Part shown: one piece after another, positions 4,448-63,425 of the stretch | Layout: every line of letters starts with the position of its first letter | How positions within the stretch are numbered: position 1 is the first letter of the stretch | NCBI RefSeq assembly: GCF_039555335.1 | Contig: NC_092628.1 | Location: forward strand, 64,303,235 to 64,367,234 | Direction of reading: 5' to 3' | DNA length: 64,000 nucleotides | Origin: Amphiura filiformis | Lineage: Eukaryota; Echinodermata; Ophiuroidea; Amphilepidida; Amphiuridae | The notes under the pieces: generated by a model | Seen by the model: only the letters and a program-made list of their open reading frames with translations | Database searches by the model: none | Told to the model about the DNA's origin: nothing | Made by a program: the position numbers and the translations under genes

Positions 4448-4640
4448 GTATGCTATCTTCAGATGATAGCAGCCAAGGTATGCCTATTATCACTCCGTAA
4501 ATATGCTATCTTAAGATGAGCATCAAGGTTTGTCTAATATCAATCTGTAAACATGCTATCTTCAGAAGAGAGTAGTCAAGGTGTGCCTCATACATGCTAT
4601 CTTCAGAAGATGGCAGCAAACGTGCATCTATTATCACTCC
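4448..4640. repeat. Palindromic 53-bp satellite, left fragment
   Basis: About four degenerate units share the core GCTATCTTCAGAAGATAGC and spacer words such as TCAAGG, ATCACTCCGTAAAT and ATCAATCTGTAAAC. The segment 4515-4640 recurs with few changes at 8274-8391 inside the main array. That shows this fragment was once joined to the array starting near 6041. Confidence 0.9.
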
Positions 4641-6040
4641 GCATGATGCAGTCATGTCTACAGTAGAATTCACCACGACCTTTGCAGAACTAAGGGGGTT
4701 CGAAACGATGTTTCTGGAAAACAGAAACTGAATTTAGAACCATTTGAATAGATTGAATAAGTTAAGCTAAATACACTGAGCAAAATAGTTTTTGTTTGAA
4801 GGAAATCGGACATACGGTTGTCAAGATATACATGTTTTTAGTTTCTTTGTATTCTATTGTTTTTGCCAATATATTGATGAAGTTAATGAGGAAAATTGGC
4901 ATAATGTGCTCATGAATATTCATGTTTGCCAATATTATACCAATATCTTATGAATAAACCTTCATACTACTTTTATTTTATATGATTTTGACATGAAACT
5001 TTGCCAATGTGTTTCTATGGCCTAAAACATTAACATGTGATTTTCCTGCCCATCTAATTTGCATATTTGCATAATTAATTAGCATTATACTTAAGGCTAA
5101 TTAATTATGCAAATAGATGGGCAGGAAAATCACATGTTAAAGGTTTAGGTCATAGAGACACATTGGCAAAGTTTCAGGTCAAAATTCTTAAAGGTAAAAG
5201 TAGTATGAAGGTTTATTCATAAAATATTGGGAAACTATTGGCAAAAATTAATATTAATGAGCACATTTTGCCAATTTTCCTCATTAACTTCATCAATATA
5301 TTGGCAAAAACAATAGAATACAAAGAATCTTTCAACAGCAATATCTCAAAAACCGTTTGTCCGATTTGGCACAAATTTTGGAATTAAGATTATTTTGCAT
5401 ATCTCTCTGCATCAAGTCTATTTTAATCTCAATCAGAGCAACTTGATTTTGCCTTTCGTACCACCTTAAACCCCATTAAAAGCTATTAAACCAAGATAAC
5501 ACTCATTGAAAACAGCTCAACTATGTTAAATCAGATCTTCTCTGGTTAAATCCACACTACACATGTTTCTGTTTACCTGTGCAATGAGCAATGAGCTGGT
5601 ATTATAGTTTCAGTTGGGTGAACGATTATAAAGCAAACGCAAGGTAACAATACTGTGTGGGCCTTTGTTTACGAAATGAGACAATAGTCTGCATATTGTT
5701 AACCAGCATTCTTGAAAATGAGAAACATAATGGTTGCAGACTTAACACGGTTTGGAAATAATTTCTTCATATTTTTTGGTGTTATCTGTCCTTTACATAT
5801 ATCCTTCCTAAAACACCAAAGTGCGAATATTTCCAAACACCTAAATTAGCTAAAAATTTCGGACATGTTACAAAACTATATTTTCTAGAATTTCAGAGAG
5901 AACTTTAAATATTGGCCGGTTATTATTTACACAGTGACGTTAACTAGGCAATGCCCATACATGTACTGTTTGTAGAGGTCACGCGTCAATGGTGAGAGTA
6001 CTGTGTATTATGTATATAGAAAATGGACAGTAACTGCAGT
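4641..6040. other. 1.4-kb block interrupting the satellite
   Basis: This block separates two satellite segments that are adjacent in the related stretch 8274-8540. It contains the long inverted repeat at 4770-5415 and about 0.6 kb of featureless DNA after it. It is probably an insertion, though deletion from the other copy is possible. Confidence 0.55.
4770..5415. mobile_element. Long inverted repeat (foldback element)
   Basis: Two arms of roughly 300 bp are inverted around about 5090-5095. Paired segments include the TTGCCAATATATTGATGAAG type sequence near 4865 and its complement near 5300, and the GATGGGCAGGAAAATCACAT stretch near 5115 with its complement near 5040. The arms differ by scattered substitutions and are near-identical towards the centre. 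It has no coding capacity. Transcribed RNA would form a long hairpin. Confidence 0.85.
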
Positions 6041-8835
6041 ATGGTTATAGCTTCAGTAAATAACAGTGAAGATTATTCCTATCACACCGTAGATATGCTA
6101 TCTTCAGAAGATAGTAGCCAACGTGATGTATCTATTACCAATCCGTAAACATATACTATCTTTAGAAGATAGCAGTCAAGGTGTGTCAATCAATCCGTAA
6201 ACATGCTATCTTCAGAGGATAGTAGTCAAGATGTGTCTCATATCAATCCGTAAACATGCTATCTTCAGAAGATAGCAGACAAGGTGTGTCTATGATCACT
6301 CCGTAAACACTTCAGAAGATAGTAGTCAACATGTGTCTATTATTACTCCATATAATGCTATCTTCAGAAGATAGTAGTCAAGGTATGCCTATTATCACTC
6401 CGTAAATATGCTATCTTCAGATGATGGCAGTCAAGGCATGTCTAATATCAATCCGTAAACATGCTATCTTCAGAAGATAGCAGTCAATGTGTGTCTATTA
6501 TCACTCTGTGATTATGCTATCTTCAGATGATGGCAGTCAAGGTATGTCTCATATCGATTCGCAAATATGCTATCTTTGGATGTTAGCAGTCAAGGTGTGT
6601 CTATTATCACGCCGTAAATATGCTATCTTAAGATAACAGAAGTCAGGGTGTGTTTAATATCAATTCGTAAACATGCTATCTTCAGAAGATAGCAGTCAAG
6701 GTGTGTCTATTATCACTCCGTAAATATGCTATCTTCAGATGATGGCAGTCAAGGCGTGTCTAATATCAATCTGTAAACATGCTATTCTCAGAAGATAGCA
6801 GTCAATGTGTGTCTATTACCACTCCGTAAATATGCTATCTTCAGAAGATATCAGTCAAGGTGTGTCTATTATCACGCCGTAAATATGCTATCTTAAGATA
6901 ACAGAAGTCAGGGTGTGTTTAATATCAATTGAAACATGCTATCTTCAGAAGATAGCAATCAATGTATGTCTATCACTCCGTAGATATGCTATCTTCAGAA
7001 GATAACAGTCACGGTGTGCCTAATATCAATTCGTAAACATGCTATTGTCAGAAGATAGCAGTCAAGGTGTGTCTCTTATCAATCCGTAAACATGCTATCT
7101 TCAGAAGATAGCAGTCAAGGTGTGTCTATTATCATCACTCCGTAAATATGCTATCTTCAGATGATGGCAGTCAAGGCGTGTCTAATATCAATCTGTAAAC
7201 ATGCTATTTTCAGAAGATATCAGTCAAGGTGTGTCTCATATCAATCCGTAAACATGCTATCTTCAGAAGATAGCAGTCAATGTGTGTCTATTACCACTCC
7301 GTAAATATGCTATCTTCAGAAGATAGCAGTCAAGGTGTGTCTATTATCACGCCGTAAATATGCTATCTTAAGATAACAGAAGTCAGGGTGTGTTTAATAT
7401 CAATTCGGAAACATGCTATCTTCAGAAGATAGCAATCAATGTATGTCTATCACTCCGTAGATATGCTATCTTCAGAAGATAACAGTCACGGTGTGCCTAA
7501 TATCAATTCGTAAACATGCTATTGTCAGAAGATAGCAGTCAAGGTGTGTCTCTTATCAATCCGTAAACATGCTATCTTCAGAAGATAGCAGTCAAGGTGT
7601 GTCTATTATCATCACTCCGTAAATATGCTATCTCCAGATGATGGCAGTCAAGGCGTGTCTAATATCAATCTGTAAACATGCTATTTTCAGAAGATATCAG
7701 TCAAGGTGTGTCTCATATCAATCCGTAAACATGCTATCTTCAGAAGATAGCAGTCAATGTGTCTATTACCACTCCGTAAATATGCTATCTTCAGAAGATA
7801 GCAGTCAAGGTGTGTCTATTATCACGCCGTAAATATGCTATCTTAAGATAACAGAAGTCAGGGTGTGTTTAATATCAATTCGTAAACATGCTATCTTCAG
7901 AAGATAGCAATCAATGTGTGTCTATCACTCCGTATATGCTATCTTCAGAAGATAACAGTCACGGTGTGCCTAATATCAATTCGTAAACATGCTATTTTCA
8001 GAAGATAGCAGTCAAGGTGTGTCTCTTATCAATCCGTAAACATGCTATCTTCAGAAGATAGCAGTCAATGTGTGTCTATTACCACTCCGTAAATATGCAA
8101 TCTTCAGATGATAGCAGTCAAGGTGTGTTTAATATCACTCCGTAAACACTTCAGAAGATAGTAGTCAACATGTGTCTATTATTACTCCATATATATGCTA
8201 TCTTCAGAAGATAGCAGTCAAGGTATGCTTATTATCACTCCGTAAATATGCTATCTTCAGATGAGCAGGCAAGGTGTGTCTAATATCAATCCGTAAACTA
8301 TCTTCAGAAGAGAGTAGTCAAGGTGTGCCTCATACATGTTATCTTCAGAAGATAGCAGCAAACGTGCATCTATTATCACTCCGTAATATATGCTATCTTC
8401 AGTAGATAACAGTCAAGATTATTCCTATCACTCCGTAGATATGCTATCTTCAGAAGATAGTAGCCAACGTGATGTATCTATTATATACTAATCCGTAAAC
8501 ATACTATCTTTAGAAGATAGCAGTCAAGGTGTGTCTTATATCAATCCGTAAACATGTTATCTTCAGAAGATAGCAGCAAACGTGCTATCTTCACTCATAT
8601 CTCAAGTTCAGAGGATAGCAGTCTGAGTGTGTCTAATATCAATCCGTAAACATGCTATCTTCAGAAGATAGCAGTCAATCATCATTATGTAAATAACTAA
8701 ATGTGCTAGCTTCTGAAGATATCAGTAAATGTCTAGGCTATCACTCCGTAATCATATACGACGTATATCTTTTCATATCAGTCAATGTGGGTCTATTATC
8801 ACTCCACAAACATGCTATCTTCATATGACATTTAA
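6041..8835. repeat. Palindromic 53-bp satellite array I
   Basis: Tandem units of about 50-53 bp, roughly 50 by length. Each holds the 19-bp odd palindrome GCTATCTTCAGAAGATAGC (9-bp arms, central A) and a spacer. Two spacer types recur: one with ATTATCACTCCGTAAATAT and one with AATATCAATCCGTAAACAT. A diagnostic variant unit with CTTAAGATAACAGAAGTCAG recurs with starts near 6611, 6876, 7351 and 7826, marking a higher-order repeat of about 475-477 bp. The last units (8580-8830) are strongly decayed. Short peptides read from it are repeat artefacts. Confidence 0.96.
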
Positions 8836-14161: not shown

Positions 14162-17100
14162 AAGTCAAGGTGTGTCTATTATCACTCCGTAAATTATGCT
14201 ATCTTCAGAAGATAGCAGTCAAGGTCTGTCTATCCGTAAATATGCTATCTTCAGAAGATAGTAGTCAACATGTGTCTATTATTACTCCATAAATATGCTA
14301 TCTTCAGAAGATAACAGTCAGGGTGTGACTAATATAAATCCGTAAACAGCTATCTTCAGAAGATAGCAGTCAAGGTGTGTCTATCACTCCGTAGATATGC
14401 TATCTTCAGAAGATAGCAGTCAAGGTGTGTCTCATATCAATCCGTAAACATGCTATCTTCAGAAGATAGCAGTCAAGGTGTGTCTCATATCAATCCGTAA
14501 ACATGCTATCTTCAGAAGATAGCAGCCAAGGTGTGTCTAATATCAATCCGTAAACATGCTATCTTCAGAAGATAGCAGTCAAGGTGTGTCAAATATCAAT
14601 CCGTAAACATGCTATCTTCAGAAGATAACAGTCAAGGTGTGTCTATCACTCCGTAGATATGCTATCTTCAGATGATAGCAGTCAAGGTGTGTCAAATATC
14701 AATCCGAAAAAAAACATGCTTATCTTCACAAGATCATGAGCAGTCAAGGTGTGTCTCATATCAATCCGTAAACATGTTATCTTCAGGAGATAGCAGTTAA
14801 GGTGTGAGTGGGGTGTGGGGGTGTGGGGGTGGGGGCGTGTGTGTGTGTGTCTATTATCACTCCGTAGTTATGCTATCATCAGATGATAGCAGTCAAGGTT
14901 TGTCTCATATCAATCCGTAAATATGCTATCTTCAGAAGATAGCAGTCAAGGTGTGTCTATTATCACTCCGTAAATATGCTATCTTCAGATGATAGCAGTC
15001 AAGGTGTGTCTAATATCAATTCGTAAACATGCTATCTTCAGAAGATAGCAGTCAAGATGTGTCTAATATCACTCCGTAAACTCTTCAGAAGATAGAAGTC
15101 AACGTGTGTCTATTATTACTCCATATATATGCTATCTTCGGAAGATAGCAGTCAAGGTGTATCTATTATCAATCAATCCATCAATCCGCAAACATGCTAT
15201 CTTCAGAAGATAGCAGTCAAGGTGTGTCTCATATCATCCGCAAATATGCTATCTTCAGAAGATAGCAGTCAAGGTGTGTCTATCACTCCGTAGATATGCT
15301 ATCTTCAGATGATAGTAGTCAAGGTGTGTCAAATATTAATCCGTAAACATGCTTATCTTCAGAAGATAGCAGTCAAGGTGTGTCTATCACTCCGTAGATA
15401 TGCTATCTTCAGAAGATAACAGTCAAGGTGTGACTAATATAAATCCGTAAACATGCTATCTTCAGAAGATAGCAGTCAAGGTGTGTCTAATATCAATCCG
15501 TAAACATGCTATCTTCAGAAGATAGCAGTCAAGGTGTGTCTATTATCACTCCGTAAATATGATATCTTCAGATGATAGCAGTCAAGGTGTGTCTAATATC
15601 AATTCGTAAACATGCTATCTTCAGAAGATAGCAGTCAAGGTATGTCTAATATCACTCCGTAAACACTTCAGAAGATAGAAGTCAACGTGTGTCTATTATT
15701 ACTCCATATATATGCTATCTTCAGAAAATAGCAGTCAAGGTGTGTCTCATATCATCCACAAATATGCTATCTTCAGAAGATAGCAGTCAAGGTGTGTCTA
15801 TCACTCCGTAGATAATATAGATATGCTATCTTCAGATGATAGCAGTCAAGGTGTGTCTCATATTAATCCGTAAATATGCTATCTTCAGATGATAGCAGTC
15901 AAGGTGTGTCAAATATTAATCCGTAAACATGCTTATCTTCAGAAGATAGCAGTCAAGGTGTGTCTATCACATTGGTAGATATGCTATCTTCAGAAGATAA
16001 CAGTCAAGGTGTGACTAATATCAATCCGTAAATATGCTATCTTCAGAAGATAGCAGTCAAGGTGTGTCTATTATCACTCCGTAAACATGCTATCTTCAGA
16101 AGATAGCAGTCAAGGTGTGTCTAATATCAATCCGTAAATATGCTATCTTCAGAAGATAGCAGTCAAGGTGTGTCTATCACTCCGTAGATATGCTATCTTC
16201 AGATGATAGCAGTCAAGGTGTGTCTCATATTAATCCGTAAATATGCTATCTTCAGATGATAGCAGTCAAGGTGTGTCAAATATTAATCCGTAAACATGCT
16301 TATCTTCAGAAGATAGCAGTCAATGTGTGTCTATCACTCGGTAGATATGCTATCTTCGGAAGATAACAGTCAAGGTGTGACTAATATCAATCCGTAAATA
16401 TGCTATCTTCAGAAGATAGCAGTCAAGGTGTGTCTATTATCATTCCGTAAACATGCTATCTTCTGAAGATAGCAGTCAAGGTGTGTCTATTATCACTCCG
16501 TAAATATGCTATCTTCAGAAGATAGAAGTCAACGTGTGTCTATTATTACTCCATATATATGCTATCTTCAGAAGATAGCAGTCAAGGTGTGTCTATCACT
16601 CCGTAGATATGCTATCTTCAGAAGATAGCAGTCAAGGTGTGTCTAATATTAATTCGTAAACATGCTATCTTCAGAAGATAGCAGTCAAGGTGTGTCTAAT
16701 ATCAATCCGTAAATATGCTATATTCAGAAGATAGCAGTCAAGGTGTGTCTAATATCAATCCGTAAACATGCTATCTTCAGAAGATAGCAGTCAAGGTGTG
16801 TCTAATATCAATCCGTAAACACGCTATCTTCATAAGATAGCAGTCAAGGTATGTCTCATATCAATCCGTAGATATGCTATCTTCAGAAGATAGCAGTCAA
16901 GGTGTGTCTATTATCACTCCGTAAACATGCTATCTTGAGATGATAGCAGTCAAGGTGTGTCTAATATCGACCCGTAAACATGCTATCTTCAGAAGATAGC
17001 AGTCAAGGTGTGTCTAATATCAATCCGTAAAGATGCTATCTTCAGAAGATAGCAGTCAAGGTGTGTATTATATCAATCCGTAGATATGCTATCTTCAGAA

Positions 17101-17883
17101 GATAGCAGTCAAGGTGTGTCTCATATCAATCCATAAATATGCTATCTTCAGAAGATAGCAGTCAAGGTGTGTATTATATCAATCCGTAGATATGCTATCT
17201 TCAGAAGATAGCAGTCAAGGTGTGTCTCATATCAATCCATAAATATGCTATCTTCAGAAGATAGCAGTCAAGGTGTGTCTCATATCAATCCGTAAATATG
17301 CTATCTTCAGAAGATAGCAGTCAAGGTGTGTATTATATCAATCCGTAGATATGCTATCTTCAGAAGATAGCAGTCAAGGTGTGTATTATATCAATCCGTA
17401 GATATGCTATCTTCAGAAGATAGCAGTCAAGGTGTGTCTCATATCAATCCATAAATATGCTATCTTCAGAAGATAGCAGTCAAGGTGTGTATTATATCAA
17501 TCCGTAGATATGCTATCTTCAGAAGATAGCAGTCAAGGTGTGTATTATATCAATCCATAAATATGCTATCTTCAGAAGATAGCAGTCAAGGTGTGTATTA
17601 TATCAATCCATAAATATGCTATCTTCAGAAGATAGCAGTCAAGGTGTGTATTATATCAATCCATAAATATGCTATCTTCAGAAGATAGCAGTCAAGGTGT
17701 GTATTATATCAATCCATAAATATGCTATCTTCAGAAGATAGCAGTCAAGGTGTGTATTATATCAATCCATAAATATGCTATCTTCAGAAGATAGCAGTCA
17801 AGGTTTGTCTATTATCACTCCGTAAACATGTTATCTTCATTCAGAAGATAGCAGTCATGGTGTGTCCAATATCACTCGTAAAC
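14162..17883. repeat. Palindromic 53-bp satellite array II
   Basis: About 3.7 kb, roughly 70 units, of the same satellite as 6.0-8.8 kb. The core GCTATCTTCAGAAGATAGC is followed by AGTCAAGGTGTGTC and one of several spacers. Common variants have A-to-T in the right arm (TTCAGATGATAGC) or an extra T (GCTTATCTTC). Units with TCTATCACTCCGTAGAT are about 3 bp shorter. Homogeneity rises to the right: from 17541 to about 17805 five consecutive units share one spacer at exactly 53-bp spacing. A GTG-rich expansion interrupts the array at 14801-14850. It has no coding role. Confidence 0.97.
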
Positions 17884-18002
17884 ATGTAATGTAATGTAAT
17901 GTTGCACTTACCTTGTTTCACTAAATTTTTAAAGCATAGCACATAGCTTTATTGTGATATGTTTGAGAGATAAATTTTTCTTCTTTAGGCCTAATCAGAA
18001 CG

Positions 18003-24586: not shown

Positions 24587-24588
24587 TA

Positions 24589-41083: not shown

Positions 41084-41102
41084 GCTATCTACTGAAGATA
41101 GC
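41084..41102. repeat. Isolated palindrome core (variant GCTATCTACTGAAGATAGC)
   Basis: A single copy of the core found in arrays at 53.2 and 62.7 kb. A second lone copy at 41277-41293 reads CTATCTACTGTAGATAG and is a perfect palindrome through a matched A/T arm change. Confidence 0.85.
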
Positions 41103-41359
41103 ATTCTTAATTATTTATCAGGGATCGAAGCCTTAAGAAGTTGCTGCTGATATCAAATTATTATCATGTAAATATTGCTGTCAATTAAAAGTATAGTAAA
41201 TTTATCATAATTTCTAATCTATACCATTACGATACAGGAATTGCGTGATATATGCTACAAGAATTACCATGGAATACTATCTACTGTAGATAGCAGAATT
41301 GGCAACTATTAAAAATACTACAAATTTTGTAATAAATCTACTGAAAAGTTACATTCTCT

Positions 41360-41580: not shown

Positions 41581-41723
41581 CTGCTATATAGGCTTACTGA
41601 TGATATCAGTATGATATACTCTCTGCACTGCTGAGGACATAATAACGAATTAATTGCTTTCACTGGCTGAAAATAATACTTGCTATCAAGTGCTACACTG
41701 ACGATAGCAGAGTTACAAGTATT

Positions 41724-42150: not shown

Positions 42151-42169
42151 GCTATCTTCGGAAGATAGC
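42151..42169. repeat. Isolated palindrome core, GCTATCTTCGGAAGATAGC
   Basis: Perfect 9-bp arms with central G, as in the 53-bp satellite but without its spacer. Confidence 0.9.
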
Positions 42170-46749: not shown

Positions 46750-46977
46750 CTCACTCTAAAAAATGTTTGCCCAACGTTGGTTAACATGTTAAGGAGATTA
46801 CAGCCCAAAGTTGGCTAATGTTTTACCAAATGTTGGGTAATGTTTTACCCAATATTGGGTTTGGCTAAGGAATTTACACAACATTGGGCAAAACATTATC
46901 CAACATTGGGCAAAACATTACCCAAAACGGGTTGTAATCTCCTTAACCAACGTTGGGCAAACATTTCTGAGAATGCT
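46750..46977. mobile_element. Palindromic MITE with CCCAACGTTGG motifs
   Basis: Both ends carry AAATGTTTGCCCAACGTTGG followed by TTAA and GGAGATTACA in inverted orientation. The interior repeats TTGGGTAATGTTTTACCCAA-type palindromes, so the element can fold as one long or many short hairpins. It ends about 70 bp past the 3' end of PTB gene 2. Confidence 0.85.
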
Positions 46978-48138: not shown

Positions 48139-48163
48139 CTTATTGGAATTCAGTTGCAGGTGT

Positions 48164-48190
48164 CTGTGTATAAAAATAGATAAAATAAGG
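48164..48190 (-). promoter_or_regulatory. Candidate 3' splice site upstream of PTB gene 2
   Basis: On the minus strand a pyrimidine-rich run (CTTATTTTATCTATTTTTAT) leads to ACACAG, 25 bases before the ATG. It could end a 5'-UTR intron, leaving a single coding exon. This is a pattern match only. Confidence 0.3.
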
Positions 48191-50264
48191 TATAAGTTTG
48201 TAACGGAAAATGTAATATCACAATATGCAAATTAATATATTAACTCCATAAACCGACGAGTGCTCAATATCACAAAGTGCTGTGGCTCTACTGATTAAAA
48301 TTATTATTACTTCCGGAATTGTATTAAGTTTTATGAACCAAACTAAGATACTAAAATACATTAAATATAAATTAAAAACATCTCCGGGCTTCTACTTCAT
48401 CCGTTAACATTATTAAAACCCTGACCTTATATGCGTACTTTGTATACCAGCATATTTTTAAAACCGCGATATCTGATATGGTATCACTATCATCAAGGGT
48501 CGACTATCTTCAGTAGACAGCAGCATTGTATAAAAAGCAAATGGTTTTTGAAACACACCCACGTCACACCCAGATAAAATGCTATTTCTGTCCGATGATT
48601 TGTATTTCTTTTGCAATTATTTGGATGATGAATCTTACTTAACGTTTACCACCCTACAGATTATATTCAAGCATTCAGAATTTCATCAAGGTGAGGACGG
48701 AATGATAAAAAGCACGGTTGAGGTTAATATCGTATTTTGCAGACAACCCACATTGGTGGACATAGTACACAGCGTGTACCATATTAATGCTGTCTTCAGT
48801 AGATAGCTTAAAAATTCGTTAAAATGCAATTTGTTGCTACTTTGATTTGATTACTACCAATCTAATGCAAAGTAGTTTGAACATAAACAGGTTATGCGGC
48901 CGCACGCCAAGCAATACCTGGTGCATTTGAAATGAAATCATAGACTTTTTTATGTGTGACAGGTAACATTTGATCATACGCAGGCGTTTTTTTAAATATA
49001 TTTTAGAAATGACTCAATTTTGACAAGTGTTCTATTCGTATACAAAAACATGTTTATAATGTGTATAATAGGGTCTACTGTGCAATAGCGTATAAAACCC
49101 ACACATTCTTAAAGAATGTATTAACAGTCACATCGGTAACAGTATACAAATGGAAGAATTCAGCTTGAAACAAATTTGAAATAACGAAAAGTGTGTATTA
49201 AACAAAATGGTACAGCTAGATTTATTCTGAAACACAATATGAATGATTGACCTTGGCTATGCTCATCATGAATTAACATAAGATGTGGATCAAAAGATGT
49301 GGTCAGCTTGTAGATGCTGTTTGTGATTATCAGCATAATGTAAGAAAAAAGCCTGATGACTCATGTCCGAATTGGCGTAATTTGCAACAAATGTATATGC
49401 ATACACAGATTTAATAATGTATGGTAATGTATGCATGAAAGACATGCTGGTATAACATTATGACATCGAAGAAAATTTATTTTTCTTATAATGAACCAAA
49501 TTTTGAAATTTAAGCATTTCGGTGATTTGGGTTACTATCTGAAATATTCAAACCTTATAAAAATCAAAGTGGACACAAACTAACGAATTATTTTTTATTT
49601 ACGTGGAATATTTATAGGCAAGCGCAGCTGGTATAAACCGGAATTCATGAGGCCTTGCGAAAAGCCTCGGAATATAAAGCACGAGAAGCTAAAAGATCTT
49701 ATAATATGATTTTCCTATTTTTGTGTAAGTTAGCTATATTTTGGGTCTTTATTTCGGTCAGTCATAGGAAAATTAGAATCAATACTGGGCGGCCTCCTCA
49801 AACTGCCACTTCATAGTCGGAATGTTGTAAAGAGATGAAAAGAAATCATTTGACCCAATTTTACTTAATTCAACAATTAATAGGTTGGCATTGAAAGAAC
49901 ATTGTGACTTGATATAAAAGGGGAAAGTGTTACATGTAGAAGATGGATGGGTGACAACAGAGAATAATGGCAGAGCGCTATGAAGATTGATGAGAGGCCT
50001 CCATTTTGTAGTGGAGTGAAGTATGCTAGATAAACATTCATCTGAATATCAATATTTAAGACATTCTTTGCTGATAATAACTATTTGTTTATATGACAAC
50101 TAAACGGGCATATTAATTAAAAGCGTTTCATTCGAGTGGTTTAATGGAAAAACAGTGTAATGATGGGTAAGACGTTTGTACTTCATGTGACGTCACAGGT
50201 CGCTATATATTTACGTGACGCGATCACGCAAAATGAATATCTGCATGTATGGCATTTTGTTACA
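48191..50264. other. Unannotated; two lone palindrome copies
   Basis: Upstream region of PTB gene 2. It holds two isolated, slightly mutated palindrome cores, CTATCTTCAGTAGACAG (48504-48520) and GCTGTCTTCAGTAGATAGC (48789-48807). No other gene or repeat is recognised. Confidence 0.5.
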
Positions 50265-52133: not shown

Positions 52134-53178
52134 GAGTTCACGGGTAACATTTATATACAACGGATCAAAAGTCTGCAATTTTCAGATCGTTATTAAGAAT
52201 GTCTTTTGATGCATTTATAACATGTATTAACCGTTTTCTGTGTACACGGGGTATAAAATTTTACATTTATAGTAATATGATTTCATGCATTGTCCAATTC
52301 ATATTGAATCGATTGCGTTTGCATGTTTGAACTCCAACATAAACAAAAATAGTGACGTTGCAAGTTTGATTGCAAAAATGAGGATTCTATAACCGATATG
52401 AGTCACTAAAAGTGTTTTCATGGTTATTGGTCAACCCGGGCCTTTTTTTTTATAAATCCGACGTACTGTCAGAACCCGAACCTTATCCTAACCCTAATCC
52501 AAACCCTAAGTAACCAATCCCTAACCATACACCATAAAAGTTGAGTACGCGTTTGCTCAAAAAATATAATTATTATTATGATCATAGTCTTGATTATTAT
52601 ACAACCAAGTAACAAGACCAGCCACAAGTTATCTTAATATTGATATCATCCGCATCTAATTGAAAATAATTGACTTTCTTATCTGTATATCTGTTATGCT
52701 ATATTGACTTACACCTGTAAGATGTTCAACAATCTAATTAGTCTTACAATGTAATTACCATGATCATCCATGCTTCCTTTCCTGTACGAAGAAATATCTA
52801 TATTTATCAATAATTTCAAGGGTAGCGTCAAAGTCAATAATTACAGGTATACTGAAAACTGTAAAACGTCTTTCACACTTGTGCATATTTTCAACACAAA
52901 ATTGTGTTCTGAGTACCTGATGGTGCTAAATTTGACTGACTCCCCGATCCCGTTTACGTATCATGGCTTCAAACACCAGACTGTCTCAAATATAAAGTGT
53001 AACAATTATTCATTAAGCAAATTACATTTTGGCAATTAATTATTGTTTTTCAACGCACGCAATTTTGTTTGACAAACCAACTCAAGAAGTGCGCAATCAA
53101 TAAGAAACGTACTATAGAGTTTTATATATAATTGATGTATAATATCAAGAAATGACCATTTATTGTTCAAAACACATG
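52134..53178. other. Unannotated; telomere-like patch
   Basis: 52479-52528 has degenerate CCTAA repeats (CCTTATCCTAACCCTAATCC). An 89-codon frame at 52770-53039 has no recognisable domain. Confidence 0.45.
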
Positions 53179-53945
53179 TGCTGAAGATAGCATCAACAAT
53201 GCTATCTACTGAAGATAGCATACCAATGGTGCTATCTCCTGAAGATAGCTTATCAATGGTGCTATCTACTGAAGATAGCATCCAGCGATGTTATCTACCG
53301 AAGGTAACATATCAATGGTGCTATCTACTGAAGATATTAGTTATCGATGCTATCTACTGAAGATAGCATGTCAACGATGTTATCTACTGAAGATAGGCTG
53401 TCAACGATGCTATCTACTGAAGATAGCATATCAACGGGTGCTATCTACTGGAGATAGCATGTCTGACGATGCTATCTACTGAAGGTAACATATCAATGGT
53501 GCTATCTACTGAAGATAGTAGTTAGCGATACTGAAGATAGCATGTCAATGGTGCTATCTACATCTACAGGAGATAGCATGTCAACGATGCTATCTACTGA
53601 TATAGCAAGTCAATGATATTATCTATTGAAGATAGCATAGGGCCTATCAATTTTGCTATCTACTGAAGATAGCATATTAATTGTGCTATCTACTGAAGAT
53701 AACATGTCAACGATGCTATCTACTGGAGATAGCATGTCAATGGTGCTATCTACTGAAGATAGCATTTCAATGATGTTATCTACTGAAGATAACATGTCAA
53801 CTGCTGGAGATAGCTTATATCAATGGTGATATCTACTGAAGATAGCATGTCAACGTTACTATCTACTGAAGATAGCATGTAAACTATGCTATCTACTGAT
53901 GATAGCATGCCAATGATGCTATCAACTGAAGGTGGCATGCCAATG
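53179..53945. repeat. Palindrome array III, about 30-bp units
   Basis: About 25 units of the variant core GCTATCTACTGAAGATAGC on 30-31 bp spacing, with spacers such as ATGTCAACGAT and ATATCAATGGT. Read on the other strand the core is GCTATCTTCAGTAGATAGC, one base different from the 53-bp satellite core. Some copies show matched arm changes (GTTATCT...AGATAAC at 53774-53792), others unmatched. The spacer is unrelated to that of arrays I and II. No coding role. Confidence 0.95.
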
Positions 53946-55092
53946 TTACTGTCGTGTTTTTGTGTGCATAATTATTATAATCAACATTATCCTGTCAGTT
54001 TCACTTCAGTTGATTCACTAATTTATTTAGAACAACATGTTCATCAATCATAGTATAAGATGTAAATACGACGCAATGGCATTGAACAAATTAAGCTGTC
54101 AGACTGACTGTATGCACTTAATTCAGAAGAGTTGATTATTATATTATATTAATTTCTATATCGTGGATTTGTTATTTTATGCACATGCTACAGTTTTTCA
54201 CATTATGATTATTTGGGATATTGTTTATCTAATACCAATCGTTAATATAATATGTTTCATGGCCAATTAAACTAATTTTGTCCCCGACCAATGAGCAGTA
54301 GTATAACCATGATAACCAGCCATTTTTATCAAATAATTTGCAGCTCTTTTCAGGTATTTCCTGACATTTCAAACATGCCCCATTTCAAGCACACGCTGTG
54401 TTTAACGAGCAATTACCATTCTTTCTCAAAACCTTCATGGCAAACTTTATTATCCCCAAATTGATTGTACTTTATTTTAGCAGCGAAGTAAACAAATATC
54501 AAGGTTTTACCAATTTGAATTATATGACTCAATGGCGCGATGGCGGTGATATATTTAAGTTGACCCTGCAAAGAACTAGGCCTAATTTTACTCAAATAAA
54601 ACAGATTTACTCACAATTTACGAAAATACTTCTTCACAACTAAACCGTGGGAATTTGTCAGGATTTAAGAGTATTTGGTTACGGCTCAGTAATATTCTAT
54701 ATATTATATTTCTTTTAACATGGACACTCGGGGCACTATAATGAACTTTCTTTCTTTTTTTTTTCTTGTTCTTTTTATTATAGAATTATTTCCTCCAAGT
54801 TCTTTTTTGTTGTAGATATTTTTTTTTCGTAATGCTCCGCTGCTTGATATTGATAACAATGATAGATCAACTGATATGCTATTGAAAGTAGCCTAAAACT
54901 GAAGATGTGTAAGGCTTGGTATCTCATGTGAAAACATAGTTGTCGTATGCCAAGTATTTTAACCACGTTAACACTATGTTACTATTAAAACAAAAGTTCC
55001 GCATGTTCACATTGATTAAAGATTCACGTTTAAATACGTCCCTATAGCGAAGTTCACCAACGCACTGCACCATGGATGCACGAGAGGAATCA
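53946..55092. other. Unannotated intergenic stretch
   Basis: AT-rich DNA. The frames at 54398-54643 (plus) and 54413-54595 (minus) overlap and are not supported. Confidence 0.4.
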
Positions 55093-55192
55093 GGGGTGGG
55101 GGGGTGGGGGGTGGGGGGGGGGGGGGGGGGGGGGGGGTGGGGGGGGGGGGGGTGGGGGTGTTGGGGTGGGCGTGTAGGGTGTTGGGGTGTGT
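55093..55192. repeat. Poly-G/GGGTG tract
   Basis: About 100 bases of almost pure G with T interruptions on the plus strand, trailing into GTGTTGGGGTG units. It may form G-quadruplexes and may be a sequencing or assembly trouble spot. Confidence 0.93.
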
Positions 55193-55520
55193 ATGTAGGT
55201 GCAGGGTGTGCACATTGCCAAACATATTAGCAAAGTAAACCAAAATATCATTTTAATTTTTTAGGGATTCTGTTTTTTTTCTTCTTCATTATTTCATGCA
55301 TAACTTTTTTGTACAAATATTTCAGAATTTAAAGGCCGAACGCTACACATGTAATATGTTGTTTTTCTTAACAAACCGCGCACGTTCACGCGTTTTGTAC
55401 ATTATTTCATTTATATCACACTCGGTGTAAAAGGTGTTTGAGATGCACTTGGAATGAAACAAATGAGGGAAATGTAAATCAACAACATACAATGTTCAAT
55501 TTTAGATCATGTCCTTCCTA

Positions 55521-55720
55521 AAATTATTATCTCAGTCGGAGTTATGTTTTTAGCAGCCCTTGGAAGTCTTTCTTAGCTGCATAGGCAAGAGTTTGTCTAT
55601 TTTGTACACGGAACTTTAATTTCAATTTATTTTAAAATGATAATTCTTTGTAAAAATAGACAAACTTTTGCCTTCCAAGGCATCCAAGGACTGTTAAAAA
55701 CCTTAACTGAGAAATAATTT
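55521..55720. mobile_element. Diverged inverted-repeat element (200 bp)
   Basis: AAATTATTATCTCAGT and GTTTTTAGCAGCCCTTGGAA at the left pair with complements at the right (TCCAAGGACTGTTAAAAAC, ACTGAGAAATAATTT). The inner words AGTTTGTCTATTTTGTAC and complement also pair. No gene. Confidence 0.7.
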
Positions 55721-56722
55721 GTCTGCCACGCCCCTCCCTTTCAATTTATGTTTTTGGCTCTTGTGCATCCAATCTCCATTGTGTTCTTGTCGTATTTACA
55801 TGAACCATGTAAAAATGACGAAATGTAACCATATGCCAAATCCACGAACATAAATTAGGTGGGGTTAGAAACAATGGAGACAGAATCAATCAATATATCG
55901 ATTAATTATGATTTAATTGATAATGAGATACAATACAAATCTCGGTCAATCAATGCATTACAATCCGGTGTGTCACAGCTCACATGCAATGTATTGTTAT
56001 ATCAAACCAAATATTTAATTTATACGACGGACGACAGAAGGCCAAAGGCTAGTTAATTGAAGCTATTTACATAATATTATGAGATATTCTTGAAGATAAA
56101 AGATGACATGGCACAAATATTATGTTAATATATATTCCATATACCCTTAAAACGATGCGTTATATTATTTACACTCGGCTTATATCTGAAAACTAGATCT
56201 CTTCAGTATCATTGCTGTTCAAAAGTATACTTATTCCGTTATTGCAACATGAGGAAACGGGACCTCTGATAAATATATAAATTTGCAATAAAATATAATC
56301 TATGTATTATGTCTTTTTTATTTAGTTTTTTTGTTCATTCTTTTTTATTCAGTTTTAATGATGTATTCATTACATTCTAGTTGTATGTAATGCAGGCATG
56401 CAAGTCATATTAAATGCTCCTACTTCTTGCATGCTCATTGCAATCAAAATGAGACTGAGACCCGCCCACTGAATTAAATGAATTCGTTCTCGATTTTATC
56501 ATGACTTTTCTTTTTCATCTCCGTTTTTTTTATTAACCATATTATGAGGAAGTCACCAACTTCTATAATTTCGAGCAAATCTTTGCATGACAAGATATGA
56601 CAAGAAAAAACAAGCCAATACTCTGCTCATTTTTATGTATTTGTCAATTGATATTATATTTCAGTTATAAAAAGAGTGATTTGCTTTTCAATGTGTAAAT
56701 TTTACTCGTGTTTTACCATGTT
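55721..56722. other. Unannotated intergenic stretch
   Basis: No gene or clear repeat is recognised. Confidence 0.4.
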
Positions 56723-57860
56723 TTATGGATGGCGGAAACCTTCAAAATACGCCTAAGAATACGCCTAACCTTAGACGTCTAAGATGCAAACTTAGACGTC
56801 TAAGATGCATTCTTAGGCGTCTAAGATGCAATCTTAGGCATCTAAGAAATTCGCGGTAGACTTAAATCAACGAATCACAGGACCAGAAATCCCAAACAAC
56901 CAATCATCTTAGGCGTATTCAATTATTGACCAATAAAATCTTAGACGCCTAAGATTTTACACGCCTAAGAATTCTTACACGTCTAAGATTGATATTTTAG
57001 TGATGGACGGTATTACCAATGTGATTTTCTCTGAGAACTTGCAGCAAAATTGATTAATTGGTTTGATTTTATTTTCGTTGGTTTGGTGTGCTGTTTTGGT
57101 GTGGCTAGTAGTAGTCAGGTATTAATGTTGATGAGCATGATGACGGCGACGACGACGACGACGATGATGATATGATGATGATGATGATTATGATGATGAT
57201 GAAAACTAATACACAAACAACAAAGAGGAACAAACATGCCTAGCATATATTTATATACCTCCATGATTCTATTTTTAACATAGAAAATTTGACCTCTTGT
57301 CTTCTTGCACTTTGCAGACTGAAATTATGCATATCTGATCTCTTCAATTATAAAAGACGATTTGGCCTTGGCCGGGGGCCTTGGTGAAAATATGTCACAC
57401 GCTGTTCGAATTATAAAGACATAGTTGGTTGACCTTATAATGTGTATGCAGTAATAACTTGACCTCTGAACATATTGGATATAAACGCATCATACCCTAC
57501 ACCGTCAGGTTAACTTTCTTGTTGAATGGAGGTATCGAGGTCTCTTAACTGTGTATTTTGGCTCAGTCATAGCATACGTGTTAAGAAAAAACATACATGA
57601 AAAGTGAGCAGGGTGACAGACACGTGCTCTTTGTTTAAACATTACAAGTAACATGAGTGGCAAACATTAATGTTTCATATTGCTACAACCCCTCCCCCAA
57701 TCAATGTTGGAGCCAATACTAGTCCGTTCCTATCTCAGTATCAAAACAACATTGGGTGGGTGCGGGGGGGGGTGAAAATTTCATACTAAATTTAATCCCT
57801 CATCACTGCCATCATCATCACCACCACGACTTTAATAATCATCTGACATCATTTGTATTA

Positions 57861-57939
<79 letters not shown>

Positions 57940-58713
57940 ACAACAACAAGAACAACAACAACAACAACAACAACAACAGCAACAACAACACCATCATCAT
58001 CATCATCATTATCATCTTCATTTACACTATAGCCACACAAATAGAAATCTTACATTAACTGCAAGTCATCAGAAAAACAAAATATTTAAAACAAATTAAA
58101 GTTTTATCAGTCTGCAACAACAACATCAACTGCTAGATTATGTTCAAATGAAAAAAAGCCTATTATGTAAAAATACATTGTTCCGCCTGAGTTGTCAAAA
58201 AGTGGCTGAAAAGAACAAAACAATGGGCCATTGTGCCGAAAGGTGGGAGAACATGTACCCTATCCCCCTCCCACCCCAACACCCCTTTCTCTTTGGGATT
58301 GACGCGGGTGGCTATGGAGAGAAAAGGAGTTTATTAAAAACACACCACCCAGCCATTGTTCGAAATATTCTCTAACGCACAGCGTCCGTTGTACGTTTTG
58401 ATACCGTCCATCACTAGTCACGGTCAAATGGTCAATCTTAGACGTGTAAGAATTCTTAGGCGTGTAAAATCTTAGGCGTCTAAGATTTCATTGGTCAATA
58501 ATTGGATACGCCTAAGATGATTGGTTGTTTGGGATTTCTAGTCCTGTGATTCGTTGATTTAAGTCTACCGCAAATTTCTTAGACGCCTAAGATTACATCT
58601 TAGACGCCTAAGAATGCATCTTAGACGTCTAAGATTGCATCTTAGACGTCTAAGGTTAGGCGTATTCTTAGGCGTATTCTTAGGCGTATTTTGAAGGTTT
58701 CCGCCATCCATAA
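56723..58713. mobile_element. 2-kb foldback transposon with long inverted ends
   Basis: Roughly 290-bp terminal inverted repeats (56723-57010 and about 58400-58713) start TTATGGATGGCGGAAACCTT. Each is largely made of TTAGACGTCTAA / TTAGGCGTCTAAG sub-palindromes. The element is flanked by TGTT on both sides (56719-56722 and 58714-58717), a probable 4-bp target duplication. The 1.4-kb interior carries GAC/GAT and ATC/ACA microsatellites and no recognisable transposase, so it is non-autonomous. The two arms differ slightly. Confidence 0.9.
57862..58018. repeat. (ATC)n(ACA)n microsatellite
   Basis: About 25 ATC units, then ACA units, then a short ATC run, inside the foldback element. Poly-Ile, poly-Met and poly-Asp peptides read from it are artefacts. 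Confidence 0.97.
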
Positions 58714-58717
58714 TGTT

Positions 58718-61509
58718 TACGACATTTCGAGGACATTGAGATCGGCGTGCAGAAGGATAAGGCCAATGAAAGTTAATTCCGAGTTTATCGTCCCCTTTTT
58801 TTCCCAGGTTGGTGAGGTGACTTTTTCATTTTTCATTATTCATTATTTCAACAGATTTCATTATTGACCTAAAATGCGTGTTGATTTAAAGCCACACTCA
58901 TACATGTTATTTATAAACATGTTTTTATATTGGTAGGGACTAGAAAAGTTAGAAAAGGGCCTCGTTTTGCTTCCAAGTTATGAATTTATGTGTTTCCAAT
59001 TGCTAAAACTGGTGAAAACACTGATACTTTGAAAATAATGAATTATTTTGGCATTTTTGAAAATTTGACGCGGGTGTTTTTGGTTACCAAAAAGTGATGC
59101 GGGCGGGGGACGATAAACTGGGAATCGACTTTCACTCGCCTAAAGTCTACACGTCGTATATTTATAGCAAATAATTTGACGCATCGCGGTAATGTATTTG
59201 TGAATGAGGAGCGCTATAGATCGTGATTTCATTCATAAAATCTTGAAAGGCTAGACAACCATGGAATCAATTACATCCATGTCTGATTTTGTGGGTAATA
59301 ATGCAAAAACAATGTTATATAAATATAATGTGAAAAATGCTATATCGAGAGAATTATATTATATTATATTATATTATATTATATTATATTATATCATATT
59401 ATATTATATTATTATAAATCATTTCATTCATATCATTTCAAAAATGAATTATCAAAACATATACGATAGGTGAAATTAATTTTCATAAATGGACAGGAAA
59501 ATATATTCAGCTTTGTTCATGCATATAATATAAATGAGAACATTGTGCCGATTTAATCAGTCGAGTCGTTCCCTCACACCAATGACTTGACGCAATTCAC
59601 ACACGAGGGAATTCATAATTGCTTTCTCTATTTTTGTATATTTAGGTCAAATAAATGATAGATCTAGTCTTTCAAGAGATAGCCATATTGGTTGAGCAGA
59701 CCGGTGAACAATGTCATCCGTTATTGATTCAATTGCAATATGATGAAATCCAGTGTGTAAACACAGTAAATCAACGCCCATCTCACTGATTATCATAGCA
59801 AATCATGCAATCTGAACCGAATGGAGTGATGTGATTTGAATGATGACACATGGGAATCTATGATAAAACAACGCCCCTGTGTCTAAAAACACCTCATAAT
59901 TATTGATATTATTTTTTTCATTAGGCCACCCCAAGCTATGATTTCTACGCAAAATTTCTGAATCAGACCAAAAAACTCTTTTGCGATTGAACATAAAAAT
60001 TAATTTACCAATTAATTAACATTATTATATATATATAATTATATGTATGCATGCTTAATCAAACTTTAAAAATACATACACAAATATAATTCTCAAACCT
60101 TCCAATTACGATATAACTCATAATTATTGATATTATTTTTTATTAGGTCATCTAAGTTATGCAAAATTTGTGAATCAGACCATGCAGATCTATTCATTAT
60201 TTAAGATCTCTGATTTAATATTAGCTCTTCGTGATATCTGCTCTTAAAATTTAAATCTACAAACTAATTCTAAATAACATCACTAGGATGTATCGACATG
60301 ATCGAAGTAAAAATGTTTAAGCAAACAGCAGCAGCAACAATAACAGCAACAACAACAACGACAACAGCAGCAGCAGCAGCAACAACAACAACAACAACAG
60401 CAACAACAACAACAACAGCAACAAGAACAACAACAGTAGCAACAACAACCTACAGAACATAATTCTCAAACCCTTTATATTTTTTTTTCGTTTTTTCAAA
60501 GTTACAAAATGAACAGGTGGATCCGGTAAGGTGGATGGTATATAATTGTCGTCAGATATATATAACCCGAGTTCATGAACCTTCTTGAATCACTGACATT
60601 CAATAGACCAGTGTTAAAGTTTCAAATGACTTCTCATGCACAAAACTCAACCTTGAAAGTTTTTGACAAAAGAATATTTATTTTGATTTACAAAAATACG
60701 TATAGTTCGTGTTCGCGTGACAATAATAGGGGTAGTCCTAACTATTACAAAATTATATAACTCTGTTCAATATATGTAAGTTCTTATTATTAAAAAGAAA
60801 CACCATTTTTTAGGTTGCATAGTGTTTATATCAACAAATATTTCACATGTTTTCCCGATTACATTAACAGGTACTTACCAAATTTGGTAGGTATAGTTTT
60901 GATATATTGCTATCTACGGAAGACAACATTTGTCCTGTTGAAACAGTTGAGTTTTCCCATACACGGCTGCATAGTGACATTCGGTGGTCTTGTAGAGTGA
61001 TGTTTGAATTATTTGGCTAAAAATCAGCCAGTGTTTTCAGACCAATTATAAGCTTGCTTAACCAATATATTCTAGTGGCATGTTTTACTTATCCCCACCA
61101 TTCCCAACGACCATTACACGCCGACTATACTCTCACATATTCCCAATAACTCACATGTAGTTGTCATGACGAGTCGCTCAACTGATCTGTGTAAAAATGA
61201 AGTGAATGGTGGTGGCGCATTACAGATACAAATATTGGCCCAGCACGGTTTGAGTACAATGTGTATGCAGATATTTCAAAATGAATGGCAGGATCAAGTC
61301 AATTGATAAATAACTGTTTACCAGAACACTGAAAAACAAAAATGTTTAGTCGGTACATACAAAGATAACAATCTTCAGCTGTTTAACTCTATATGTATAA
61401 GTAATAATTCTTCTCTAGCAGTACAAAATCCAAGATTTCAGCACCTTCGCAGAGTTTGTGTGCGGTTTTGCATTCTGATTAACATTAATAGTGGGCCTAT
61501 CGTTTTAAT
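58718..61509. other. Unannotated; contains two microsatellites
   Basis: 59353-59412 is (ATATT)n and 60325-60452 is (CAA/CAG)n. A lone palindrome relative, GCTATCTACGGAAGACAAC, lies at 60909-60927. No gene is recognised in 2.8 kb. Confidence 0.5.
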
Positions 61510-61875
61510 AATATCAGTAAACTAGCCGTGTCCTTTCATCAAACTACAGGTAAAAAAAATACAATTAAATTAAATATATTTAAAATGAACCCTCTTCTAA
61601 ATAACACCATCCAACCAATTTCTTTTCTGATTAACATTGTATAAAACATTTTTAAACATAATCGTTAACTTAATTACTGAGCCAGGTGTGTACTTTCATC
61701 AAGCTGTATCTAAGTAAAAATAATGACAAGTCAATTAAATGGATTTACATTTCAAATGAAAACCTACCCATTTAAATAACTCCCACCAATATGATTATCA
61801 TTTTGTAAAACATAATAGAATTAACTTGACATTAGTGAACCAGGTGTGTACTTTCATCGAGCTGTATATAGCTAG
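61510..61875 (+). repeat. Tandem repeat, about 2-3 units of 160-173 bp
   Basis: The phrase GAGCCAGGTGTGTACTTTCA and relatives recurs near 61515, 61680 and 61840, followed each time by AAGCTGTAT-type sequence, A-rich DNA and AAATAAC(A/T)CC. Divergence between units is about 25-30% by eye. Confidence 0.7.
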
Positions 61876-61927
61876 GTTAAAAAAATAAAACAAAAACAAA
61901 AATCGAGTCAGATACACTTTCAAGTCT

Positions 61928-62434
61928 GCGTTCTCAAAGTTAGACAAGATCCTAAAAAACAGTGCCCTCGGTATGGAGACCAGAATTCGGGTACTCAACT
62001 GCTATGTCATCCCTGTATTAATGTATGGAAGTGAAGCATGGTCAATAACAACAGACATTAAAAGAAGATTGGAGAGCTGCGAGATGTGGTTCCTTAGAAG
62101 AATGATGAAGATCCCGTGGACTGATAAAGTGTCTAATGACGATGTCCTAAGAAGAGCAAATGTGAACAGGAAGCTGTTACGTGAAATCAGAGTTAAGCAG
62201 CTCAAATTCCTTGGTCATATCCTCAGAAAGGATGGTTTCGAGAACCTAGTATTGACAGGAAGAATAGAAGGAACAAGGAGCAGAGGCAGGAAGAGAGTGA
62301 TGTGGTTATCAAATCTGAAAGACTGGCTAAAAGAAAGGGGAGCTGAACATAAAGCGACAGAGCTTCTGGAGATGGCTTATAACAGAGAATTGTGGCATGA
62401 CATGATCGCCAACGTCTTAGGATATGGCACCTAG
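61928..62434 (+). pseudogene. C-terminal end of non-LTR reverse transcriptase (partial)
   Basis: 168 in-frame codons end in TAG; nothing upstream of 61928 belongs to the element. The order of motifs fits the region after the catalytic fingers/palm of endonuclease-reverse transcriptases: AFSKLDKILKN, CYVIPVLMYGSEAW, CEMWFLRRMMKIPW, LKFLGHILRKDG, then RSRGRKRVMWLSNLKDW. The YADD catalytic core and the endonuclease are missing, so it cannot be active. The frame is intact, which suggests fairly recent insertion. Clade (RTE or a relative) is inferred from the motif style and the tail; I cannot confirm it. Confidence 0.85.
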
Positions 62435-62458
62435 AGAGAGAGAGAGAGAGAGAGAGAG
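61928..62458 (+). mobile_element. 5'-truncated LINE insertion with target duplications
   Basis: The retrotransposon 3' end lies between ACACTTTCAAGTCT (61914-61927) and ACACTTTCAAAGTCT (62459-62473), a 14/15-bp target-site duplication with one added A. It ends in an (AG)n tail (62432-62458) that begins at the stop codon, so there is almost no 3' UTR. Short tandem-repeat tails of this kind are known for RTE-like LINEs. The 5' truncation is the usual result of incomplete reverse transcription. Confidence 0.85.
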
Positions 62459-62597
62459 ACACTTTCAAAGTCTACATATTTTATGTAGCTAGGCTATTTA
62501 GTTTTGGCAGTTTAACCCACCCAAAATTATGTGTTACAATTAAAACTTAAGACAAACGAGTTAACAAATGTCGGCGTAAACTCCAGATAAAAAAATT

Positions 62598-62735
62598 GGA
62601 GAATACACCGACATAGGAATCGAACCCGTGACTTTCCGCGCAGCTAAGACAGTAGGGTATAATAACAACATATGCACAATCATGCAGCATGGAACAGGAT
62701 ATCAACAAATGATGCTTTATCACCACGAAGAGAGC
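62598..62735 (-). repeat. tRNA-related dispersed repeat, copy A
   Basis: Minus-strand B box GGTTCGATTCC (62616-62626) within CACGGGTTCGATTCCTATGT. About 135 bp match 63294-63425, sharing GCAGCTAAGACA, CATGGAACAGG-like and ATCAACAAATGATGCTT. The A box is not convincing, so it is not a working tRNA. A tRNA-derived SINE is the best reading. Confidence 0.6.
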
Positions 62736-62743
62736 ATGTAAAT

Positions 62744-63070
62744 GCTATCTACTGAAGATAGCATGCAGGCTAAATGCTATCTACTGAAGATAGCATGTAA
62801 ATACCATCTACTGAAGAGAACATGTAAATGCTATCTACTGAAGATAGCATGTAAATACCATCTACTGAAGAGGGCATAAATGCTATCTACTGAAGATAAC
62901 ATGTAAATACCATCTACTGAAGAGAGCATGTAAATGCTATCTACTGAAGATAGCATGTAATACCTGAAGAAAGTGTGAAGAAGGCATAAATGTTATCTAC
63001 TGAAGATAACATACACATCTATATATATAGCATGCAAATACCATCTGCAGAGGATAACATGCAAAACTGT
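62744..63070. repeat. Palindrome array IV, about 30-bp units
   Basis: About ten units alternate the full core GCTATCTACTGAAGATAGC and a degenerate partner ACCATCTACTGAAGAGAGC, separated by ATGTAAAT. One copy (62992-63010) has matched arm changes GTTATCT...AGATAAC. The spacer differs from array III. It lies between the two tRNA-related repeats. Confidence 0.92.
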
Positions 63071-63293: not shown

Positions 63294-63425
63294 TTAACAC
63301 CGACATAGGAATCGAACCCGAGACCTTCCGTGCAGCTAAGACAATAGGGTATACAACATATATGCTCAGCATATTGCACAACAGACACTGGAACAGGAGA
63401 TCAACAAATGATGCTTAATCACCAC
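63294..63425 (-). repeat. tRNA-related dispersed repeat, copy B
   Basis: Second copy of the repeat at 62598-62735, 696 bp away in the same orientation, with the same B box GGTTCGATTCC (about 63312-63322). Together with array IV between them this may be one compound repeat or a local duplication. Confidence 0.6.

Follow-up and report, generated by a model that had tools for sequence, protein, structure and literature searches.

A near-palindromic core shared by tandem arrays and isolated copies in a 64-kb stretch of Amphiura filiformis DNA

Tandem arrays on a common core

The window considered here, one continuous stretch of 64 kb of DNA from Amphiura filiformis (NC_092628.1, positions 64,303,235 to 64,367,234; 34.8% GC, no N), contains tandem arrays built on a 19-letter near-palindrome, GCTATCTACTGAAGATAGC, and all counts given below refer to this stretch. 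Only at its central base and in the 8/12 pair does the core depart from its own reverse complement. It occurs in 11 exact copies, six in an array at 53.2 kb, four in an array at 62.7 kb and one standing alone at 41,084, and its reverse complement differs by one base from GCTATCTTCAGAAGATAGC, the core of a 53-bp satellite located in the same window. Sequences with at most three mismatches to the core amount to 241, both strands counted, against 0.00 expected and a maximum of 0 in 100 shuffles, and a chance origin of these matches is excluded. The arrays are listed below, the number of units being that of units scoring at least 13/19 to the core.

4450..4655, + strand: fragment of the 53-bp satellite, 5 units, the last degenerate, about 1.4 kb from the main array; right edge approximate
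6085..8830, + strand: 53-bp satellite array, core GCTATCTTCAGAAGATAGC, 53 units, with a 9-unit (475-bp) higher-order repeat; edges approximate, the right one at 8794 by gapped extension and at 8823-8831 by another estimate
14163..17886, + strand: 53-bp satellite array, 69 units; right edge at 17866 by gapped extension
53176..53953, + strand: 30-bp palindrome array, GCTATCTACTGAAGATAGC followed by an 11-nt spacer (about ATRTCAAYGRT), 25 units; edges by gapped extension
53,877-53,887: spacer ATGTAAACTAT, a single copy within the 53.2-kb array
62727..63070, + strand: 27-bp palindrome array, GCTATCTACTGAAGATAGC followed by the 8-nt spacer ATGTAAAT, 10 units; right edge approximate (63065 by gapped extension)

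These are head-to-tail tandem arrays of a repeated unit, that is, satellite or minisatellite DNA. The first-pass annotation had assigned GCTATCTACTGAAGATAGC to the arrays at 53.2 and 62.7 kb and had described it as the 53-bp core with one base changed, on the opposite strand. The exact copies and the single-base difference bear this out, and the reversal is correct, but the strand contrast means little because the core is self-complementary apart from the positions named above. A period of 30-31 bp had been given for both arrays; it holds at 53.2 kb, where the period is 30 and the 11-nt spacer is modal (13/24), and fails at 62.7 kb, where the period is 27, the 8-nt spacer is modal (5/9) and two alternating types of unit produce a 54-bp repeat.

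When folded as single DNA strands, the 21-nt cores reach -6.7 and -6.2 kcal/mol, and none of 200 shuffles was as good. The array at 6.1-8.8 kb is organized in a nine-unit repeat with a period of 475 bp, and the identity between its units is 0.81 at lag 9 versus 0.72-0.76 for every other lag up to 16, a pattern expected of segmental duplication or unequal exchange. With increasing distance, the units of the 62.7-kb array become steadily less identical, those of the 53.2-kb array do so only loosely, and those at 14-18 kb do not. The ends of the arrays were also considered as possible cuts at the centre of the hairpin, since some appeared by eye to be half-cores; gapped extension revealed no common phase, and this idea was dropped.

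Some features adjoin the arrays. The 62.7-kb array abuts on its left a tRNA-like repeat at 62605-62726, and leftward gapped extension overran into this neighbouring repeat, to 62686. The repeat is present in two direct copies, 82% alike (the second at 63297-63425), the 27-bp array beginning where the first copy ends, and it carries a B-box-like GGTTCGATTCC on the minus strand, as judged by eye. Direct repeats at 13889-13976 and 18019-18123 (87-105 bp, 70% alike) bracket the 14.2-17.9 kb array, as if it had grown inside a duplication. The first 53-bp array is interrupted at about 4,655-6,045 by DNA that contains a long inverted-repeat element at 4890-5330, recognized by eye, and G-rich tracts of the GGGGTG type lie at 14808-14849 and 55093-55199, one of them inside a spacer of the 53-bp satellite.

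Core copies outside the arrays

Outside the arrays (56,210 bp), six sites match the core at 16/19 or better, whereas 30 second-order Markov sequences yielded one such site in total (0.033 each). In a separate control, palindromes that kept the centre but had their arms scrambled (299 draws with repeats) gave at most one match per draw, and one match in 25/299. A weight-matrix scan recovered the same six cores only, whose total scores lie between 23.1 and 34.5, all other sites having local scores of 18.0 or less; its matrix was derived from cores of the window, among them these six, and of 20 random sequences one had a site with a local score of at least 27. Neither these sites nor the two-unit relic described below had been reported in the first-pass annotation.

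41084..41102, + strand: solo core, 19/19, identical to the core of the 30-bp array
41276..41294, + strand: solo core ACTATCTACTGTAGATAGC, 18/19; GAAT on either side of the core plus 1 nt
41689..41709, + strand: degenerate core-like sequence, read as the first unit of the relic repeat; its local score of 15.9 is one that chance alone would also reach in the background
41,725-42,146: miniature inverted-repeat transposable element (MITE), 422 bp, with perfect terminal inverted repeats of 38 bp and ATTT on either side
42151..42169, + strand: core GCTATCTTCGGAAGATAGC outside the arrays, 18/19; second unit of the likely relic repeat
48503..48521, - strand: solo core, 17/19
48789..48807, - strand: solo core, 18/19; TTAA on either side of the core plus 1 nt
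60909..60927, + strand: solo core, 16/19

Four of the six (41084, 48503, 48789 and 60909) share an asymmetric A8.A12 centre with the core of the 30-bp array, and the remaining two have one A8.T12 and one T8.A12 centre; the recurrence of A8.A12 points to a common sequence, beyond the shape of a hairpin alone. With the six oriented alike, each core column shows an agreement of 4 to 6/6, which is partly due to selection as the sites were chosen by their core score. The bases that adjoin the cores are T before in 5/6 and A after in 4/6, and the other flank columns shown agree in 2 to 4/6.

The copy at 42,151 differs from the others in its surroundings. The MITE ends four bases from this core, and when it is removed, CAGAGTTACAA is found on either side of the core, with the degenerate core-like sequence ahead. 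The latter is read as a first unit because of the CAGAGTTACAA repeat, its local score alone being at chance. A direct repeat of at least 10 nt has a probability of 0.026 at a random site, and six sites were inspected. The 42,151 core is thus likely half of a relic two-unit repeat with the spacer AGAGTTACAAGTATTT, split by the MITE, and this spacer differs by eye from the others.

The flanks of the six cores form no recognizable single family. Among their 15 pairs, flank-flank scores range from 6 to 14, with 4/15 at 10 or above, against single-pair null values of 10 (95%) and 11 (99%). The pair 41,276/60,909, which scored 14, was examined for homology of the neighbourhoods, and this was rejected, as the local alignment over about 100 bp reached 16.5 against null values of 16.0 (95%) and 20.0 (99%). 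Nor do the flanks clearly resemble array spacers: their scores are 6 to 8 for the 53-bp spacer, where the 95% null is 10, and 5 to 7 for the 30-bp spacers, where it is 7. If the solos were ordinary decayed units, their flanks should have decayed no faster than their cores in the absence of selection, so the core would have been either inserted as such or selectively kept.

The spacers themselves had been described as unrelated in the first-pass annotation, but they may be related. Comparison of those of the 53- and 30-bp units gave a joint P of 0.058. One variant of the 30-bp spacer, ATATCAATGGT, has ATATCAAT in common with the 53-bp spacer, with a single-test P of 0.035 by shuffling and 0.0245 with genomic words, and the remaining two variants are at chance level. 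In alignments to the 53-bp spacer anchored on the core, two 30-bp variants had a shuffle P of 0.0195 and 0.2565, whereas that of the 27-bp spacer was 0.3815 and that of ATGTAAACTAT 0.0075. A kinship of the 30- and 27-bp spacers at P 0.0105, obtained with four hand-picked spacers, was lost with all 17 spacers of 9-13 nt (P 0.053, and 0.325 without the single spacer ATGTAAACTAT). Most of the shortest spacers of the 53-bp family (22 to 28 nt) begin, as the long spacers do, with a AGTCAAGG-like sequence, and hence no chain of intermediates linking one family to the other was seen by eye in the window.

The remaining content of the window includes other elements with palindromes. A transposon-like element of about 2 kb at 56723-58713 has terminal inverted repeats (about 290-310 bp) that hold 21-bp tandem palindromes, CTTAGACGTCTAAG, a second palindrome family in the window. 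A long foldback element of about 750 bp at 23840-24590 has many AGAACC/GGTTCT palindromes and, by eye, the ends ACACTCTCAGAAA...TTTCTGAGAGTGT. A small inverted-repeat element at 46752-46975 is made of CCCAACATTGGG palindromes in opposite orientations, and its ends resemble in part, by eye, those of the element at 23.8 kb. Rfam at gathering threshold and ARAGORN found one tRNA-Pro gene and nothing else. There are 60 open reading frames of at least 80 aa, the three longest of which were scanned with Pfam; two contain a PID_2 (phosphotyrosine interaction) domain, and a frame of 181 aa, which had no Pfam match, is in our reading the tail of a reverse transcriptase. Taken with the PID_2 frames, the window appears to resemble an invertebrate nuclear genome.

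Origin of the arrays

The reading that we prefer, with a probability of about 0.4, is that the local arrays arose from a seed, a hairpin unit of some 20 bp that is dispersed. The unit of descent would be the core itself, about 20-21 bp long (T-GCTATCTACTGAAGATAGC-A), a near-palindrome able to form a hairpin. Single copies would be scattered and, when duplicated with adjoining DNA, would give rise to local tandem arrays, whose spacer would be whatever DNA adjoined the seed core. The arrays may then grow by hairpin-assisted slippage and unequal exchange, and the single copies may spread by transposase-like or break-templated insertion; the core could be viewed as two fused 10-bp terminal inverted repeats, resembling a minimal MITE. 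The arrays do have a common core, which also occurs outside them, the spacers differ among the 53-bp, 30-bp, 27-bp and likely relic repeats, and one array holds a nine-unit repeat; the excess of outside cores over the controls, the A8.A12 centre of four solos, CAGAGTTACAA on either side of the 42,151 core and the folding of the cores speak for this reading as well.

Bases next to the solos were inspected for target-site duplications. The 4-mers beside the core plus one base are identical at 41,276 and 48,789 and agree in 3/4 positions at 41,084. The agreement is 16/24 positions in all, with a permutation P of 0.005 for the mean identity over all registers tried, a statistic picked post hoc; these 4-bp duplications are a hint, a lead and no more. 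In a stronger form of the seeding model, a 20-21-bp palindrome would be mobile within the nuclear genome of an animal, would duplicate 4 bp of target on inserting, and could seed a satellite with the adjoining DNA at every site of insertion; this is decidedly unlikely.

Several results weigh against seeding by a hairpin unit. The arms of the 53-bp units show no compensatory changes, with 12 double changes versus 10.1 expected, and the same applies to the 30-bp (3 versus 4.5) and 27-bp units (2 versus 1.1). This test used distinct units (47/127, 19/25 and 7/10 for the 53-, 30- and 27-bp repeats) and was no clearer than slid pairings; the maintenance of a hairpin is thus without support. Furthermore, the six flanks have a higher mean similarity than random six-site sets (P 0.017; P 0.08 for the number of high-scoring pairs), and there may be a faint shared background around the solos. 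The six cores cluster in three places (41-42, 48.5-48.8 and 60.9 kb), and these share one half of the window with the 30- and 27-bp arrays, so that their spread may be local. The 4-mers agree in 2/4 positions at 42,151, 1/4 at 48,503 and 2/4 at 60,909, and the number of perfect 4-bp repeats has a P of 0.09 when all tried registers are allowed for. Separate origins of the spacers, which this reading supposes, would have to accommodate similarities that hover near significance, and its evidence comes from a single 64-kb window.

The main rival supposes that all the repeats descend from a single ancient satellite whose core is a box under constraint: selection keeps the core (e.g., as a protein-binding site), the spacers diverge, shrink or are replaced, and the solos are remnants of lost arrays with decayed spacers. 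This is possible, if doubtful. The similarity among solo flanks and the near-significant similarity of spacers speak for it, and core-like fragments occur near 41.3-41.7 kb, each at a chance-level score. The divergence of core and spacer gives a divided answer: the core is less divergent in the 53.2-kb (0.057 versus 0.182) and 14-18 kb (0.034 versus 0.074) arrays, equal at 6-9 kb (0.105 versus 0.102) and more variable at 62.7 kb (0.084 versus 0.000), hence lower in two of the four arrays, with values taken from units of exact modal length only (45 at 14-18 kb, 31 at 6-9 kb, 13 at 53.2 kb, 5 at 62.7 kb) and with a selection by core score that favours a conserved core. Moreover, the solo flanks retain no clear spacer, and the 17-bp CENP-B box is matched in 9, 9 and 8/17 positions by the 53-, 30- and 27-bp units, values equalled by 91, 72 and 97% of shuffles, so the units are not counted among carriers of this box. 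The Meloidogyne satellites discussed below offer a precedent for such a box (PMC9673304, PMC3694981).

The arrays could also be the cargo or the terminal repeats of a larger mobile element, either of the Helitron/Helentron type or a foldback DNA transposon, as in the Helentron-borne arrays of oyster (PMC7492417) and the Tetris repeats of Drosophila (PMC4079207). The element at 56,723-58,713, whose terminal inverted repeats hold tandem palindromes, lends this idea some plausibility, as does a 4-nt microsatellite that ends about 460 bp ahead of the 4.45-kb fragment, the only one of the five arrays to have one within the 500 bp before it. It is unlikely, however, as BLAST (E 0.05) of 400-bp and 2500-bp flanks detected inverted repeats at none of the five arrays, and the 500-bp flanks of different arrays have no mutual match at E 0.01. 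Subterminal inverted words of at least 10 nt were absent between flanks in all eight tests on four arrays, which is weak evidence since about 69% of random segments also lack them and mismatched repeats could escape. On these grounds the arrays were assigned neither to Helentrons nor to foldback elements. The other direct matches between flanks are a 20-bp one around the 4.45-kb fragment and a TTTC microsatellite around the 53.2-kb array. The proposal that the core is a regulatory site kept near genes is very improbable. Two inverted GATA-type sites (CTATCT...AGATAG), which the core may resemble, would be an example, and the solos at 48,503 and 48,789 lie 272 and 558 bp past the upstream end of a minus-strand PID_2 frame (47,050-48,231); a GATA pair, however, needs a shorter stretch than the conserved core with its centre, and arrays of 10-69 units are unusual for a regulatory site. 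Coincidence or convergence of hairpins could be argued from the many others outside the arrays (267 by the hairpin rule, 102 after a GC filter), but the shuffle, Markov and scrambled-arm controls, together with the A8.A12 centre common to four of the six solos, make this extremely improbable.

On balance, uncoupling of the core from its spacer within the window is favoured, not proved. The first-pass annotation had suggested that the core moves or persists independently of its spacer, like a functional site or a mobile seed. The first part agrees with the six outside-array cores, with flanks that form no recognizable family and with the other spacer at 42.15 kb; it is at odds with the average similarity of the solo flanks and with a possible relationship of the spacer families. 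Regarding functional site versus mobile seed, the arms gave no compensation, the flanks no carrier, and the duplications only a post hoc hint. The birth of satellite DNA has long been debated, and a core that occurs both solo and arrayed, with differing spacers, offers a view of before and after in one stretch, which makes the seed model directly testable. A mobile palindrome of 20-21 bp, if true, would rank with the smallest mobile units known and would give rise directly to new families of satellites.

Comparison with known systems

A 19-base degenerate pattern of the core had no exact match in viral contigs, and a 20-base pattern had one in a prokaryote collection, where by rough arithmetic chance could give a few. 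In a text search of the literature with six core or unit strings, none of the 19-letter cores appeared, and a single 16-letter match came from a paper on yeast amino acids. The core is likewise undescribed among the titles and abstract openings listed from open-licence literature on related topics, which is weak evidence of absence.

In the satellites of Meloidogyne, a CENP-B-box-like motif of 17 bp averages 15/17 identity, while the satellites are 36-74% alike overall (PMC9673304, PMC3694981), and a centromeric box of 19 bp has also been reported (Despot-Slade 2021, as mentioned in PMC9673304). Like these satellites, the arrays of the window combine a short shared core, a remainder that differs from array to array and higher-order repeats; unlike them, the core is near-palindromic, has no match to the CENP-B box beyond that of shuffles, and is present outside the arrays too. 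Satellites related to Helitrons in Caenorhabditis are built on the palindromic decamer AGAANNTTCT (PMC4595182), and the authors proposed that palindromes may favour satellite expansion; they also noted isolated copies of another satellite motif, whose meaning was unclear. Several satellite repeats on one palindromic core are thus found in both cases, but the Caenorhabditis core is shorter and tied to Helitrons, whereas no mobile-element ends were found around the arrays of the window.

Oyster Cg_HINE elements carry satellite-like arrays within Helentron-related elements (PMC7492417), and they resemble the present case in the short satellite-like arrays scattered through the genome, although the window arrays had neither subterminal inverted repeats nor common flanks in the tests made. 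In Drosophila, a satellite was seeded by the foldback repeats of Tetris (PMC4079207). The hairpin-forming elements of sponge mitochondria and the short palindromic repeats of Volvox are thought to be selfish or invasive (PMC2800124, PMC2670323). They share with the window the short dispersed hairpins, also in tandem in sponges, but they reside in organelle genomes, the nuclear copies of Volvox being thought inert, whereas the window looks nuclear. REP and REPIN sequences (PMC3116915) are tiny dispersed palindromes as well, but bacterial. The arrays belong to a kind already known, satellites that carry a short conserved core, and the variant seen here is the occurrence of this core alone in apparently nuclear animal DNA.

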